This document shows, piece after piece, positions 11,390 to 19,810 of a stretch of DNA of 64,000 bases (within the stretch, counting starts at the first letter, position 1; each line of letters begins with the position of its first letter). The notes beneath the pieces are model-generated. The model was not told the DNA's origin, did not search any database, and saw nothing but the letters and a program-made list of their open reading frames with translations. Source of the DNA: Mesaphorura yosii. Taxonomy: Eukaryota > Arthropoda > Collembola > Poduromorpha > Tullbergiidae. The position numbers were made by a program, and so were the translations under genes. The stretch lies in contig WIXG01000035.1 of the NCBI GenBank assembly GCA_009869945.1, positions 124,001 to 188,000 on the forward strand, given 5' to 3'.

Positions 11390-12346
11390 CTACTTCATCG
11401 TGTTCGCGTTCGCTCCAAGATGACTTGTGTCGAATGTTGTCTCAAATCTGACAACATACTTCCCTGAAGACATCAAAGAAATGCTCAATTTTGTAAAACT
11501 GGAATTTGGGGGTGATCTGATGCATTCATCAACAATGTAATTCTCCAGCGTAAAAAGCTCTGGGTGTGCTGTCAACGTGTCAAGTAACGTTAAAATCCAC
11601 GCGCCATGAGTCACCACCAAAACATTATAATCTGCGCCCGGCAATTTCGCAACTTCACAAATTTCCTGGAAACAAAAGAATCTTCACAATTAACTGTACT
11701 CGTCAATATATCATTGTCCAAAAATACCTTAAAAAACTCGAAGCCTATCGCAGAAAAATCTTTATAAGTCTGCCCGTTCGGTATAGACAATCTGTGCATG
11801 CGTGTTCCTTGCTTCAGTGCAGTATGGAATACAAACTCCACATCTTCGCCCTCCCAGTCCCCAAAATCCTAATGCGAAAACACAAACAAGATACTAGAAT
11901 TTCACAGCGGACTGAGCGGACGCAATATGAAATACCCTTTCGCGGATCCTGGAGTCAATTACAATTTCTGGTGTTGGGCTGTTCTGATTATGCTTCAAGA
12001 TTCGCCTCGCTGTTTGCTGAGTCCTGGTGAGGTTGCTGGCGTAAACATGAGTGAATTTCTCATTGGCAAGATATTGTCCGAGTTGATCACCCTAATTAAA
12101 CACAAATCATGACGCTACGAGTTGTCTTGCAATGACGGCGTCATGAACGCTTACCTGAAATTCTCCGAGTTCGGAGAGCAATGCGTCTGTCCTGGATTGG
12201 ATCTTCTTCTCATGGTTCCTGGTTGTCTGCCCGCTGCAATATAATAAAAAATTGCTACTTAGTCCGATGTCAGACTCCCTATTTTACAACGTAGCAGGTA
12301 ACTCTGTAACTTACTGTCTCACCAAGGTAACGCGCAGAACATTCAT
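11390..12346 (-). CDS. TIGAR-like histidine phosphatase, copy 1
   Basis: TIGAR-type enzymes of the histidine phosphatase (phosphoglycerate mutase-like) superfamily remove phosphate from fructose-2,6-bisphosphate or related sugar phosphates in the cytosol. Five exons on the minus strand (12315-12346, 12155-12233, 11936-12091, 11728-11868, 11390-11665) join in phase to 227 aa, against about 270 for human TIGAR. The catalytic set is visible: RHG with His11, Glu88 in the RIRER motif at the end of exon 3, and His156 in VVTHGAW. The tail carries the family pattern PPNSSFTKL...FDTSHL. The motif after RHG reads QT where most relatives have ET. It heads a tandem set of four similar genes on the same strand. 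Substrate is not determined by sequence; other sugar-phosphate phosphatases are possible. Confidence 0.88.
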
Positions 12347-13009
12347 TTCGATGATTTATGAAAACACCACAATTAAATTAAAATATCAGCTATATTCCAT
12401 TTCGATCCGGGATACGGTCGCCTCGACAGTAATGTACATGAACGACTGACAGATATAGACAACTGCACTTACTACACAGTATCATGGTCATGTGTTCCAC
12501 GTCTGATGAAACTCACGCATGCGAATTGCGATCGCTTCGCCCGCTCTCATGCTCGTGTCCAAATGATACGCTATTCGAACGTGCTCAAACCGTTCCAAAC
12601 TGATGCAACCTGAGTGTTTGACCAACTCGGCTGTTTTCTTGCAAAATTATGGAGCGATGGCGAATTTTGGAAGCACACTGAACGTCATTTTTTATTGATT
12701 TGCTCAATAAGTCTAACAATCGATTTACCATTTCGCAATTTGCAAAATCTGAACAAAATTGATTAGTTTTCACTTTCCACTGGCAAGATGGTTTAAAGTT
12801 TATCGTACGAATTCTAACATTCTACGCATGCAAGAATTCTAGCAATAATAATTGTAACAATCATACTAATATTTATGCTGGCAATTCAGTTTCGAAATCA
12901 CGTATCAACGGAATGTTTAAGATCAGAATAAAGCAGTTGGAAATCATATATCATTTAGTTTAGAGAGCTTGTTGGAATCCCTTTTACAATGAAATATCGC
13001 TAGTTAACA
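12347..13009. other. Spacer between TIGAR-like copies 1 and 2
   Basis: No gene seen. The promoter of copy 1 and the 3' UTR of copy 2 must lie here. A TTTATT near 12691 gives an AATAAA on the minus strand that could serve copy 2. Short open frames on both strands have no recognisable content. Confidence 0.4.
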
Positions 13010-14004
13010 TCATTTTGGTAAATCCTGACCGTGTAAATGGGAGTTATCATGCAGAGTCAAAAATTTCAGCAGTCTTGGCCCATTTTCATTTGTGCGTTTT
13101 GTCAAGACAATCTTGGTAACTCCAGTGGTTGGGGCTGGAGCTCTTGCAACCTTTTCATTACAATTCTCGACCTGATACAATGAAGGACTGGTCAAAATGT
13201 GTTCCATAAACGATGCGAGCCAAGCGCCGTGAGTTGCAACTAAAATATTTTGTGACTCCATTCCATTATAATTATCTGCCAGCTCACATATTTCCTGTAA
13301 ACAAAATACTAATTAGAATATCTTTATATCCTTGAATGATCAAGGAATAGCACAGTGTAGAACTCACCCTCAGAAAGTTACCAGCCCTAGCCATAACTTC
13401 TTCCACAGTTTCACCGCCTTCACATGGAAGGAAATGTGGATACACTCCTGCAGCCATCGCAGCTCTAACCATGTCCAGTGGTGTCTTCTCTTTCCAATCT
13501 CCTGCGTCCTGCAAACAATGGGCACCAAGTAAATTAGTTGGTACTACTAGAATATGGAGACAAATAAAGATTCCCTTACCCTTTCTGAAATCCTCTTGTC
13601 TATTACCATTTGCAAATTTGAGCAGTGTTTAGATTTTTTTAAAATTATGGCAACAGTTTCCTGTGTGCGAATAAATTCGCTTGCATAGACCCGGGTGAAT
13701 TTTTCATCACTTAATGTTCTTCCTAATACCTCTACCTGAACAAATGAATTCATATGGAATACAGAAGTGCTCATACCACTAATCCTTTAACAAAACTGAT
13801 TGCCAACTCTTACCTCAGCAATTCCCCGTTCACTCAATGGACCATCATAGTGATCTTTAATAAGCTTATTATAATTTTCTTCCCGGTTTATTGGCATCTC
13901 CCCACTTCATCAAAACATGACAAATATTAATTCATATTTGTTAAAAGATTCAAATCGCTCTTTTACTTTACTTACTGTCTGACTAGAACGAGTGTAGTTG
14001 ACAT
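13010..14004 (-). CDS. TIGAR-like histidine phosphatase, copy 2
   Basis: Five exons on the minus strand (13976-14004, 13814-13904, 13580-13735, 13368-13508, 13010-13294) join in phase to 233 aa. Catalytic residues are present: RHG with His10, Glu91 in RISER, and His161 in ATHGAW. The tail keeps PAPTTGVTK...LHDNSHL. Exon 2 is 12 nt longer than in copies 1 and 3, so the segment after RHGEM carries four extra residues, and the conserved FGxWEG stretch reads AGDWKE. Residues AREGV-like GVYPHFLPCEGGETVEEVMAR give the typical PGGE loop. Exons 3 and 4 have exactly the same sizes as in copy 1 (156 and 141 nt), showing recent tandem duplication. Acceptor of exon 2 (TTTTGATGAAG) is weak but required by phase. 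Confidence 0.87.
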
Positions 14005-16200
14005 TATTTACGCAAGCGTTATTTGAATATTGTTGGGGCACAATTAATTATTGCAATACGACGAACGAAGCGATAATTTTCTAGTTGCACGATGCTGATT
14101 CTTGAACACAACAGTGGCAATTATGAGGCCTAAAATAATTTCAGCTGAATTTTATATAAAAATACTGACTGCAGGTTTCACTCTTCTGGTGTTTCAAATA
14201 CACGAGACGGGAGTGGAATGGAATAGGCTTTGTCCGTGTTGTTGAGAGCTCCCAGACCTTGCTTTGTACCGTGAATGGATGGACAATGCACTTGTTAAAT
14301 AAATTACTTCAATTAAAGTGACTATCAGAGTAGTGAATAATGCGACATGTTTTCCAATGCGGGAGTTCTTATTTGAGAGATATGAAATATTATTCAACTT
14401 GGATGCTTTCTATGTACACTTGCTGGAAGCCTGTGACAGCCTTTAGCTGATTATTACAAACTCTAAGCATAGGCGCAGTCTGCTATCAGAAAATCTGGAA
14501 TTTCATTCACACCACTTGACATCAACCTCTCACATCATATGCGGTCATAATGAGACATGGCACGAGCCATGTTGTATAGGCGGATGGAGAATTATCGACC
14601 TCGAACTCGAACAATCAGTTCATTTCATTGGAAATGTGTTGGACGAGGCAAGAAACAATTGTTTTGAGGCCCGGGCAGGCATGCGGCATGTTAGTCGCAT
14701 TCATGCTGATGTCCAATCGGAGCCTTTTCATTATTGAATTCAATTCAATTGCACAAATCATAGCATGCTTTTTCATCGTGCTCAAGATAACAAAACGGGA
14801 GCATTTCATGATTATCCATGTTATCAGAATTTTCACGTACTTGGGTGACAGGTGTACGTCTGAACGTTAGCCAAATCAATCGAACTGTTGAATTATTTGT
14901 CAAGAAGGTGGTATTTTTTAAAATTATAATTACGAAGGAAAATGTTTTGTGTTGCTATCGTGACTAATTTTTGCCTTGCGTATATTAAATATTTTGGGCT
15001 ATGGCCTGCAACTTTTTGAAGCGTGGCATCTGCACTTGGAAGTCCACAGGCACTTGGTGCCGATAGTACTGGTCTGCATGGCTGTATCGGCTTCGTTCAT
15101 GTACTAAATAAAGGGCAATCCGATTGATCACAGACTGGCATAATCAATTGTGGTGCAAGAATAATCGACTTCACCGGATATTGACAACCGGAAAGTCTAG
15201 ACAAAGTGGAGAAAAACTTACGAAGAAAGCTTCCTTTCGAGTGCTTTCACTAATGCGAACTCTGCAGCTTTCTCTGTCTTGGTTTGTATACAAGCTAGCC
15301 ACTCTCGCACATGCGATACGAATTCACCTGTTCGCTTGCGCTGGCATTTCACGACATTGAGCCAATAGCGCAAGCTCGGAGAGACGATTTCTCCCGGGTT
15401 ATTTTTGGTTTCCCAATAACTTCGTATTAATAAGTAAAAGGCTTGATTATTGCACTCCTTCTCGAACCCAACGATTCAATTCGCTAACAACCATTCAGTA
15501 TTATACTCAAAGTCCAAGCTGAACACGAATGGGCTTGTTCCATGGGTCACTGTTAATGGTTTCATCTGTTGAAAGTTAAAAACCAGAAACCCTTTTAAAT
15601 TAAAAAGACCTCAAGCCATTTGACTGTAAACAGTTGCAGTGCTGCAGACTTAATGAATTTTGTCTCGGACATTGACTGGTTAACAGATTCTTAAATTCTC
15701 AAACACTTCAAACACGTGCAATTCTCTTCTGGCGCATAATCCATATCATGTTTACCGAGCTGAATAACTAAGGAAGTGAATCAACTTAAGTTTACTTGAG
15801 ATTGGGGAAGATTCTGAAGCTGGCCTCGTGACTGGTGATCAGTCCTCAGCATGGTTTATTTCGAGTTTGTCGAGTGTTTCACGCAATTGATACAATGGTC
15901 GGGCGAAATTTGGAAATTGTTTCACGTTTACTGCGACTTGTGGCTCCTAATAATTTGACGACGAAGCAAATACATGTCCCTATCCAGGTCCACCAACAAA
16001 GTGCAGGTAACCAAAAGATAAATATTTATCCTAGAGTCTCAAGCAATAGCAATATTTATTTTTGCACCATTCGATTTGGTATGCTGCGCTTTCACAAATC
16101 ACAGTAAATAATTACAAATATGGCAAACGTCAAAGACACTTAGTCTACAACAAGAATGCGTAAAACTTCTTTCTGCTTAATAAAGTTCACAAATCTTACT
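14005..16200. other. 2.2-kb spacer between TIGAR-like copies 2 and 3
   Basis: No convincing gene. Plus-strand open frames at 14516-14737, 14628-14870, 15124-15360 and 15835-16107 lack supporting start codons, splice structure or domains. One plus-strand frame near 14540 reads VIMRHGT, but the surrounding frame closes at once, so it is not treated as a phosphatase. The spacer is about three times longer than that between copies 1 and 2. Confidence 0.4.
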
Positions 16201-17171
16201 TTACTTATCATAATTTGCTGCAAGACAGCCGACATCTTTCAAATGTGTTGCATCTGCCGCACATGAGAACACTATTTTTCTTCTGACCTCATTGTTGTTA
16301 CATTTAAATACTGTGAACTGTGTCTTGCAAGTGTTCTCCGGCGGTCGGTGTGTGCCAAGGCTCCAGTTGAAACTTTCCACATCATAGTCTTCCATTCTTT
16401 TCAGATATGAGAAGAAATAGATGATCCACAATCCGTGAGTAACAATTAAAACATTTTGGTTCTCATTCGAACTGTCAAAAGAGGCAAAAAGGTCCTGCAC
16501 AAATAGTAATACGAGAATTATCACGCTGTATTCAATCATTGTGCCAAGTCTTGCAAACCAACCGTAATGAACTCTTTAATCCGCGCAACCACTTCGAAAT
16601 GAGTTTCACCGCCTGGTGGTGTTACTTCGTGTGGTCCCACACCTGCTTCTCGGGCAGCGTCAAATATATCCTTTCCGGGTCGGCCTTCCCACTCGCCAAA
16701 GTTCTACCATTCATTCAAGTTTCCAATTCAGTATTACAATCACGGGTAACTGTTAATTTCAAGACCATTTTCCTTACCTTTTCCCGAAGCCTCTTGTCTA
16801 GCACGATATCTGGCTGACTGTGCAATGATTTGCTTAGCGCAACTTTCGCAGTACTCTGAGTTCGCTCCGAATCGCTGGAGAAAATATGAGTAAATTTCTC
16901 ATGGGCGAGGTCCTCTCCAAGAAATTCGGCCTGCAAATAATTTTAAATCAATAAATTACATTGCGATAAATGCATTTGTTTGTGTCATACCTGCTGAATT
17001 CCAGTCTCGTTTATGTCACCAGACCCGTGCGAGTGAATCAGCAGTTTGCGATTGAGATCAGTCTCCGCACTGCAATAGCGATACAATTATTTTACTAGCT
17101 AGTTAACGAAGCACACAAAGGTCCGTGGCAGGGCCAACTTACTGTCGAATAATTGTCACTCTAAAACTCAT
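16201..17171 (-). CDS. TIGAR-like histidine phosphatase, copy 3
   Basis: Five exons on the minus strand (17143-17171, 16991-17069, 16778-16930, 16563-16703, 16201-16494) join in phase to 231 aa. The active site is recognisable, with His10, Glu86 in RLREK and His154 in VTHGLW. However, the glycine after the first catalytic His is Ala (RHAET instead of RHGET), unusual for this superfamily. The FGEWEG and PPGGETHFEVVARIKEF stretches are the best conserved of the three copies. The tail reads RPPENTCKTQFTVF...AADATHL. Exon 4 is 141 nt as in copies 1 and 2. Start is the ATG that places the first intron inside the RH codon pair, as in the other copies. Whether it is active needs enzymology. Confidence 0.87.
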
Positions 17172-17931
17172 ATTGAAATCGAAGGGGTTGCTGCTGTTTG
17201 CTTCTGCGAGGAGTTGACCAAACTGCGACGAACCATACCTTCATCAACTGAGGAGATTTGTTTTATTGTGGGCCACATACCACAACACTCGAGAATTTAT
17301 GTGTACTGGTGGTTGTGGTTTTTCGCTATCGCATCACTCCATTCGCATTCCAATGAATTAACCTAATGCTCACTTTCTATTTATGATGTTTCATGTGCAC
17401 CACGCTGTGCTAAAGACCTGTCATCAGCTCTTAATCATGCGAAGTTGTATCGGAATAAGCTAATCATCATGCGTGTGTGGTATCACATGATGAATTTGAC
17501 AGAATTCTGTCGTATGAATCGGGTACAAAGTCTACAAGTGCAAAGTCCACGCGTTGGGTCCATAAAGTCCAACCCAGCTCCAACCGATGCAAGCATCTCC
17601 TCACCTCTCCTTTGACAGTTTATATTGTGCAGAGTTGAGTTTATTCAATTCAAGGTCAGAACAAGAAAATATTGTGGGATCTTGAGCTAAGAATTTTTTC
17701 CATTGCTTGTGCTTGCCATACTCCTTTGCATTCTGAAACTCTGATCTTCTGGTTTGCCTTGCTAGCACAAATTTTAGATGTTCGCATCTTCTAGATTTAG
17801 GTTCAAAGTCCAATGTGATTACTTTATGAAAGCATGATCATCATAATTTGACTCACATTTCTCACAGTTTACGCTACACGCTCAAATTCTTATTCATACA
17901 TTAATTCAAATGTGAGCTATCCAGAAAGTTT
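17172..17931. other. Spacer between TIGAR-like copy 3 and the pseudogene
   Basis: No gene seen. A minus-strand open frame of 70 codons at 17601-17813 is Lys/Arg/Gln-rich but starts with TTG and has no recognisable features. Confidence 0.4.
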
Positions 17932-18788
17932 TCAAATATGATTTTTCGTTGACAACCTGTGCCCATTTGAACTGGCTTTGTGAATGACAAATCTGCTGAG
18001 GCATGTATATTTGAGACCGCCTTTGCTCAATCCGTTGAGTCCCAGCCGGCTGGAATCCATTCCATTAACTTCAAATTTCTTCCCATGATTAGCAGGCGAA
18101 AAATGAGGCAATCCAAATTCTATGCAAAACCACAAGACGTTTTCAGGTTCTTTGACATCATCATATAGTTGACAAAGTTCCTGTGTTGATATCCCATCTT
18201 GAATTAGGAATGCAATGGAGGTGAAACAATTGGATAACAGTGGAGCCTCGCCTCAGAGAATGAGGTAATACGAGACATGAGTTGCTTGTGTGTATTGCCT
18301 CCTGGCGGATGCGGTTATGATAAAAACTGAAGATAGTCTGCTTTTTCCGTTCAGGTTCGAGTCCTTGAGCTTCACTAATAACTCGGCCAAAGTTTTCTTC
18401 ATTCCTTGTGTGTCCTGTTCTCCCATGCCTTGATATAGTTAATATCGCGTGTGAGTACAAGAATCATGATCGCAGTCTTCGCTTAATTAAATTTGTGTGC
18501 CTTACTCGCTCGCGTAAATTAGCTTCCAGTACAATTTCTGGTACAGGATAATTTGACTTGCTGAGGACGAATTTAGCTGTTTTATTCGCCCTTATTATGT
18601 CACTTGAATACACTTTTGTGAATTTTTCGTTTGCGAAGCGAAGCCCAATAGCTTTGGCCTGTTAAAATTCATATGAATCATATGTCAATTCATGAGTGGT
18701 TGCTTGTCAACCTTTATCTGAGCGACTCCGGTAGCATTGAGACAAACGTAAATGCAACGAAGTGTGCAGGTTAAAGTCAGTCTCACCA
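17932..18788 (-). pseudogene. Decayed TIGAR-like copy 4
   Basis: Four exons matching copies 1-3 can be traced on the minus strand. Exon 2 (18712-18788) is 77 nt instead of 79 and keeps the family start GETDFN and, in another frame, the end LNATGVAQIK, so it is frameshifted. Exon 3 (18506-18658) is intact and well conserved (RFANEKFTKVYSSD, LREZ-like ending LRER). Exon 4 (about 18252-18394) is 143 nt instead of 141: NFGRVISEAQG is in one frame, PHPPGGNTHKQL in another, and the donor is GC rather than GT. The last exon (17932-18180, 249 nt) lacks the THG motif with the second catalytic His. No exon 1 was found. These combined lesions make a working enzyme very unlikely. Confidence 0.8.
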
Positions 18789-19432
18789 CTGAAAAGAAAT
18801 ATGTGCCAAATTACTTCCTCAGTTCCTTTTAATATTTTCAATTGTTAAACTTAATGCCGAACCAAATTGACAGAAAAGCATCTTCCGATACTTCCAAACG
18901 AACGCATTTGAACTGAGAATCGGTGACCGTAGAACACAAACTTGAGGTTCTATTTTATGAAATGAATCTTCGAAGCATTCCTGCACTACTTTGTTTCAAT
19001 TGTGATCACTTTCATTGTGCGTGATGCAGACAGTCGTGATCCAGCACCTCCTGTTAAAGAGCATTAATAGCCATTACATTACATAACAGGGCACTCATTC
19101 CGTTGGAGAAAAGTTGGCAACAAAACAAAATGTTTCTAGCAAGTTTGAAATATCCGCAACTGTTGCACTGCAATTTAATTGCATGCAACATTCATGTTCC
19201 ACTACGCGATAAAGTTGCAGAACAAAATGTTGCGCAACAAAATTGCATGGTCGAACATTAGCTTAACAGATTTTAGCTTTGACAACTGAAATGGATGCTG
19301 GATTGAAACGGATCACAAGGAGAATACGACCACGTATAAATTGCCAATGGCCAGAAATGAACGCACATTTATACAGGATTAAAAATAGCTCTATCTTTTC
19401 TTTGTCACAAATATTTGTAAAATATATATTAC
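18789..19432. other. Flank of the TIGAR-like cluster
   Basis: This is where exon 1 and the promoter of copy 4 would be expected. I find no ATG-containing 29-32 nt exon ending in CGNCA before a donor, unlike the other copies. No other gene is seen. Confidence 0.4.
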
Positions 19433-19810
19433 ATGAGCTTATCTAAAAAAAAGGACTTGCGATCAGTAGTAAGGTACCCTTATTTGGGACGAATTTACCA
19501 ATTCTTTAGCGCTAAGTTCGGGTTCACTGTCTCACACAAAATTTTTTTGCGAAAAATCCAACAATTGACTGAGATTTTGAAAAATTATAATGAGAATGAC
19601 GACTTTGAATTCAAACTCCGTCAACTTCTTGCTCCTGCTTTTGTTCCGCTGCCTGATGCCGCCGACTCATTCAAAACTTTGATGGAAACGGATTTCTTTA
19701 ATGAAAACTCTGAGCTACTGTCGTCTTTGCTTGATTACTTTGAGGACACATGGATTGGAAGAGCACTAGTAAGCATTGAGTCAGGGAAAGCGATTATGCA
19801 ACATGTTTAG
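19433..19810 (+). mobile_element. Fragment resembling a MULE-type transposase
   Basis: An ATG-started frame of 125 codons resembles the region just after the transposase core in animal MULE-like elements, which often also carry FLYWCH zinc fingers. The diagnostic stretch is residues 65-110: a long helical segment, then LLAPAFVPLPDAADSF, then LLDYFEDTWIGR, close to the family pattern LxALAFVPxxDVxxxFE...LLDYFExTWIG. The catalytic DDE residues are upstream in this family and are not seen here, and the downstream RTNN-type region is missing. The frame ends in a stop soon after, and a second frame (19776-20027) continues without homology. No terminal inverted repeats were recognised. Family recognition is from memory of pattern, so moderate confidence. 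Confidence 0.55.

Follow-up and report, generated by a model that had tools for sequence, protein, structure and literature searches.

Three intact genes and one decayed gene resembling TIGAR lie head to tail on the minus strand of the window analyzed here (64,000 nucleotides of a Mesaphorura yosii contig). Humans have a single TIGAR gene, and the question raised by this locus is whether such an array is the product of a recent local burst of duplication or a fragment of something older. We favor the second answer, with a probability of roughly 85%: copies A to D, together with genes dispersed elsewhere in a small genome, would form, within branch 1 of the histidine phosphatases, an old TIGAR-like subfamily. 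Comparison of the predicted genes and proteins establishes the family, the exon architecture, the minimum number of copies, the decay of D and the conservation of the active-site residues.

The tandem group

The array comprises the following features.

Copy A, 11390..12346, minus strand: exons 12346-12315, 12233-12155, 12091-11936, 11868-11728 and 11665-11390; 227 aa
Copy B, 13010..14004, minus strand: exons 14004-13976, 13904-13814, 13735-13580, 13508-13368 and 13294-13010; 233 aa
Copy C, 16201..17171, minus strand: exons 17171-17143, 17069-16991, 16930-16778, 16703-16563 and 16494-16201; 231 aa
Copy D, 17907..18788, minus strand: decayed; exon-2-like piece 18788-18712, exon-3-like piece 18658-18506
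Copy D, 18308-18258, minus strand, frame -1: exon-4-like piece, a weak match
Copy D, 18180-18133 (frame -3), 18136-18095 (frame -2) and about 18008-17907 (frame -1), minus strand: exon-5-like pieces, weak matches

The gene models, together with the homology of D, bear out the earlier note's description of a head-to-tail, minus-strand group of three intact copies and a decayed one. Splicing reproduces to the base the coding exon sizes it had given for the intact copies, namely 32/79/156/141/276 nt in A, 29/91/156/141/285 in B (where the 91-nt exon 2 carries an insert of four residues) and 29/79/153/141/294 in C. All three have closed frames, and their 12 introns, of 60-81 nt, are GT-AG without exception. 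Intron 1 does split the codon of the catalytic His, in phase 2, as had been proposed for an RHG motif; A and B do have RHG, whereas C has RHA. An AATAAA lies 340 nt downstream of the stop in A, 313 nt in B, and both 140 and 340 nt in C. Differences among the three are lowest at codon position 2 (0.40-0.43) and highest at position 3 (0.62-0.70). It is hardly credible, then, that these copies are pseudogenes or annotation artefacts merely seeming intact: D does show that decay occurs in the array, but the frames of the intact copies are closed across five exons, the catalytic residues are kept, the splice borders are conserved despite low identity, and the codon-position bias persists.

Some 0.7 kb upstream of C, copy D retains homology in collinear order and spread over three frames, its leading piece (18751-18506) being in frame -2. 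The exon-3-like piece is 153 nt long, open, flanked by AG/GT ends and a strong match (to C, E 3.7e-11), while those resembling exons 4 and 5 are short and match weakly, with E values of 8.6e-4 to 0.12 against a 1.3-kb stretch. Of the sizes previously ascribed to D (77/153/143/249), three can be fitted: the 153 nt just described, 77 nt for exon 2 if the GT after AAAG serves as donor, and 249 nt between the AG at 18181 and a stop at 17932, whose frame departs early from the homology. Neither of two starting points, however, gave the 143-nt exon 4, and an exon 1 of D was not identified. We regard D as a pseudogene. The array had also been taken as a sign of ongoing birth and death; one death is what we see, in D, whose closest intact relative over exon 3 is C, at 50% identity.

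Upstream of D, two donor-like strings of the type found at the end of exon 1 in intact copies occur on the minus strand, at 19532 and 19723. Just upstream as well, a 129-aa open frame (19421-19810, plus strand) has no Pfam match, and a genome search that skips very common words found no second DNA copy of it. With all eight intact proteins of the family as queries, the rest of the window, outside 11390-18800, gave nothing better than E 0.25.

Identity of the proteins

The three intact proteins match Pfam His_Phos_1 (PF00300) with 120.4 (A), 103.5 (B) and 116.3 bits (C), for a curated cut-off of 21.7 and E values ranging from 1.5e-29 to 9.9e-35, the latter for A. In the PDB the best matches were 3dcy for A (E 4e-21) and B (E 3.1e-20), and 3e9c for C (E 1.1e-24). 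We take these structures to be human and zebrafish TIGAR, respectively, although the PDB tables read 'regulator protein' and 'Zgc:56074'. One or the other was the best solved structure for each of the six proteins searched singly, 3dcy being the top match of the dispersed C50b, C281 and C8; C50a and C773 were compared with the PDB within a profile of all eight proteins. That profile retrieved 3dcy (5.9e-44), 3e9c (8.2e-41) and 3e9e, a variant of the latter (7.9e-39), ahead of the first non-TIGAR protein, the PhoE 1ebb (1.3e-31). Vertebrate TIGARs thus head the PDB matches of A, B, C and of the profile, which supports the name TIGAR-like given in the earlier note. Among the six proteins searched singly, the 3dcy score points to C281 as the likeliest true TIGAR orthologue. 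A search for prokaryote relatives with C281 as query, in a collection of genome contigs, gave 53 pattern matches, none of which was confirmed.

The likeness to vertebrate TIGAR (3dcy, 3e9c) extends from the His_Phos_1 domain to R10, H11, R61, E89 and H198, which align in all eight proteins. There are also differences, since the short group found here (227-233 aa) falls below the 270 aa that PMC6131595 gives for human TIGAR, and lacks the insert that precedes the H198 motif in the zebrafish chain. Bacterial CobC and PhoE phosphatases belong to the same superfamily and share its catalytic motifs, but every NCBIfam match listed for A, B and C is under its curated cut-off, and the CobC/PhoE matches in the PDB are weaker than those to TIGAR. 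The bisphosphatase domain of PFKFB, as recognized by us on C56 (minus strand) and C170, is likewise of branch 1 and has its coding sequence interrupted at RHG; unlike in the TIGAR-like genes, however, the intron there is in phase 0, between the Arg and His codons and two bases away from the TIGAR-like position, and PFKFB joins CobC in the tree (92/90). The introns at RHG in the two kinds of gene may descend from one ancient intron that has slid, or may coincide by chance.

The PFKFB-like domain on C170 (5186-5728), the second of its kind, is a single open frame, whereas the C56 copy shifts frame across introns; the C170 domain has possibly lost introns.

A probably old, dispersed family

The count of copies across the genome that the earlier note had suggested was carried out on 93.0 Mb in 1127 contigs, using the PF00300 profile (14 matches) and four single proteins of the family. 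It yielded at least eight intact TIGAR-like genes (A, B, C, C281, C8, C50a, C50b and C773) plus the decayed D, five of the intact ones being outside the array; the figure is a lower bound because exons are searched one at a time and scoring is confined to the top candidates. The dispersed copies are single genes on C281, C8 (at about 193.6-195.0 kb) and C773, and a tandem pair on C50, whose second gene was detected by protein search only and not by PF00300. The remaining PF00300 matches resemble PFKFB (C56 twice, C170), dPGM (C558 twice) and PGAM5 (C8:43844), labels that reflect recognition and not a subfamily test. At C250:88328 and C179:137049 the protein search also picked up weak similarity (E 0.42 and 2.4, respectively). 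As to the host, 66 matches of the RR cuticle domain PF00379 in this genome indicate an arthropod, and COX1 had no match in the assembly; the odorant receptor family PF02949 had none either, but its controls were equally empty, so that this negative carries no weight.

The two C50 genes (L016 4135-5241 and 7623-8698) share a C-terminal extension with similar final residues and are 44% identical to each other.

The exon architecture, described earlier as frozen in the array, is so, but it is not specific to it. The models of C281, C8, C50a and C50b also have an exon 2 of 79 nt and an exon 4 of 141 nt, and in seven of the eight intact loci introns 1 to 4 occupy identical alignment columns with phases 2, 0, 0 and 0. 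The exception, C773, retains intron 3 alone, and C281 has an additional fifth intron, in the THG motif, for a total of six modelled exons; six is also the number of exons that PMC6131595 gives for human TIGAR. Because four dispersed genes match the array in columns and phases, the architecture is a property of the family and not of the array, and the four introns are best read, from these gene models, as inherited from the family's common ancestor.

Low identity points in the same direction. The tandem copies are 33-36% identical among themselves, which is no more than their identity to the dispersed C281 (36-39%) or C8 (35-38%), and they are 26-29% identical to the C50/C773 group. In a tree of 15 rows, A and C are joined with C8 (85/84) and B falls in an unresolved part; in a tree of 16 rows that includes the species' own dPGM, A, C and C8 are grouped at 91/86 and B is added at 87/89. 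A, B and C were not recovered as a clade by themselves, and such a clade, when forced, costs 2.75 log units and is not rejected (p-AU 0.105).

These data correct the reading in which metabolic specialisation drove TIGAR to duplicate in a recent local burst; we now regard that reading as very unlikely. What speaks for it is the head-to-tail arrangement of three intact copies and a decayed one, the differing pocket motifs (A has NGQT, C has RHA) and the fact that the A, B, C clade is not rejected. But the tandem copies are no closer to each other than to C281 and C8, A and C are grouped with C8 in the tree, and the intron positions are common to the dispersed genes; a local expansion of recent date is not supported. 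Furthermore, the spacer that separates B from C and the sequence upstream of D each match only themselves in the genome (very common words skipped), which counts against the burst and, on the same grounds, led us to reject recent transposition as the cause of the array. From the predicted genes, what we have looks like an old, partly tandem family more than a recent burst, and the array is a genuine tandem group inside an older dispersed family, a case of ordinary gene-family evolution.

It is possible, if unlikely, that part of the set belongs to another histidine phosphatase subfamily, the obvious candidates being C50a, C50b and C773, with their C-terminal extension. These three form their own clade in both trees (97/98 with 15 rows, 97/96 with 16) and are only 25-32% identical to the short group, a range that also holds for C281 and C8 taken together. 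Moreover, the 16-row tree places them with PhoE, 3r7a, CobC and PFKFB and not with TIGAR, at a weak 48/84 and with the species' own dPGM as a long branch. Against this, both C50 genes have all four introns of the short group, and C50b finds 3dcy (E 2.6e-19) before the first non-TIGAR chain, 1h2e (2.8e-15). Such a split would in any case leave A, B and C unaffected.

With outgroups that are few and partly fragments, one branch of the 15-row tree (66/77, unstarred) sets apart the ten TIGAR-like rows, and another (78/86, unstarred) does so for A, B, C, C8, C281 and the two vertebrate TIGARs. A clade of the eight Mesaphorura proteins without vertebrate TIGAR costs 6.11 log units and is not rejected either (p-AU 0.113). 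The trees would thus fit a single TIGAR clade, without proving it.

In the old TIGAR-like subfamily that we favor, the ancestral gene would have been interrupted by four introns, in phases 2, 0, 0 and 0, and its intron 1 would have split the nucleophilic His codon. This ancestor would have been duplicated long ago; its descendants would include the adjacent A, B, C and decaying D, the C50 pair and the lone genes of C281, C8 and C773. The significance of the locus would change accordingly, from a recent local burst to an older dispersed family. No report of an arthropod TIGAR expansion appears among the matches listed in the open-licence literature, which does not show that none exists. In zebrafish, a second copy is implied by the name TigarB, used in a review (PMC8301401).

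Active site and possible substrates

Residues are given in human numbering (chain position minus 5), which we anchored on H11, presumably the catalytic His of human TIGAR. R10, H11, R61, E89 and H198 are conserved in 8/8 intact copies, and G12 is replaced by Ala in C. Because these five residues are kept throughout, the intact copies are probably working phosphatases. As in the rest of the superfamily, the enzyme of each would transfer the phosphate group of a small substrate, a sugar- or glycerate-phosphate, to His11, from which hydrolysis would release it. E89, which we take to be the structural acid, lies in an RxRER motif and is retained in all ten rows. The position of E102 is more variable: PMC6131595 names three essential residues of human TIGAR, H11, E102 and H198, but at position 102 a Glu is found in only two of the eight copies (C50a and C773), and the zebrafish chain does not have one either.

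The loop aligned to human GGET differs as well, reading NGQT in A, GGET in B and C, GAET in C281, GGEP in C8, KAET in C50a, SCET in C50b and GGES in C773, and therefore leaves room for different substrates. According to PMC6131595, 2,3-bisphosphoglycerate, 2-phosphoglycerate and PEP are better substrates of TIGAR than fructose-2,6-bisphosphate, so that the label 'fructose-2,6-bisphosphatase-type' applied to these genes by the earlier note is itself doubtful. It would be a long shot to propose that the altered pockets (A with NGQT, C with RHA, and the longer proteins of C50 and C773) have split substrates among them, making a lineage-specific toolkit out of one ancient gene of five or six exons. 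If the copies do differ in substrate, they would provide a natural set of variants for learning what the TIGAR pocket selects, a matter that, according to PMC6131595, is still debated for the human enzyme between 2,3-bisphosphoglycerate and fructose-2,6-bisphosphate.

As for the rest of the 64-kb window, no tandem repeats, Rfam families or tRNAs were found within it. On the plus strand, two long frames at 1295-2396 have no Pfam match and resemble, by recognition, part of an INPP4-type phosphatase. Also on the plus strand, a frame of 332 aa at 27858-28856 matches Pfam Frag1/DRAM/Sfk1 (E 1.4e-31) and resembles PGAP2, again by recognition.
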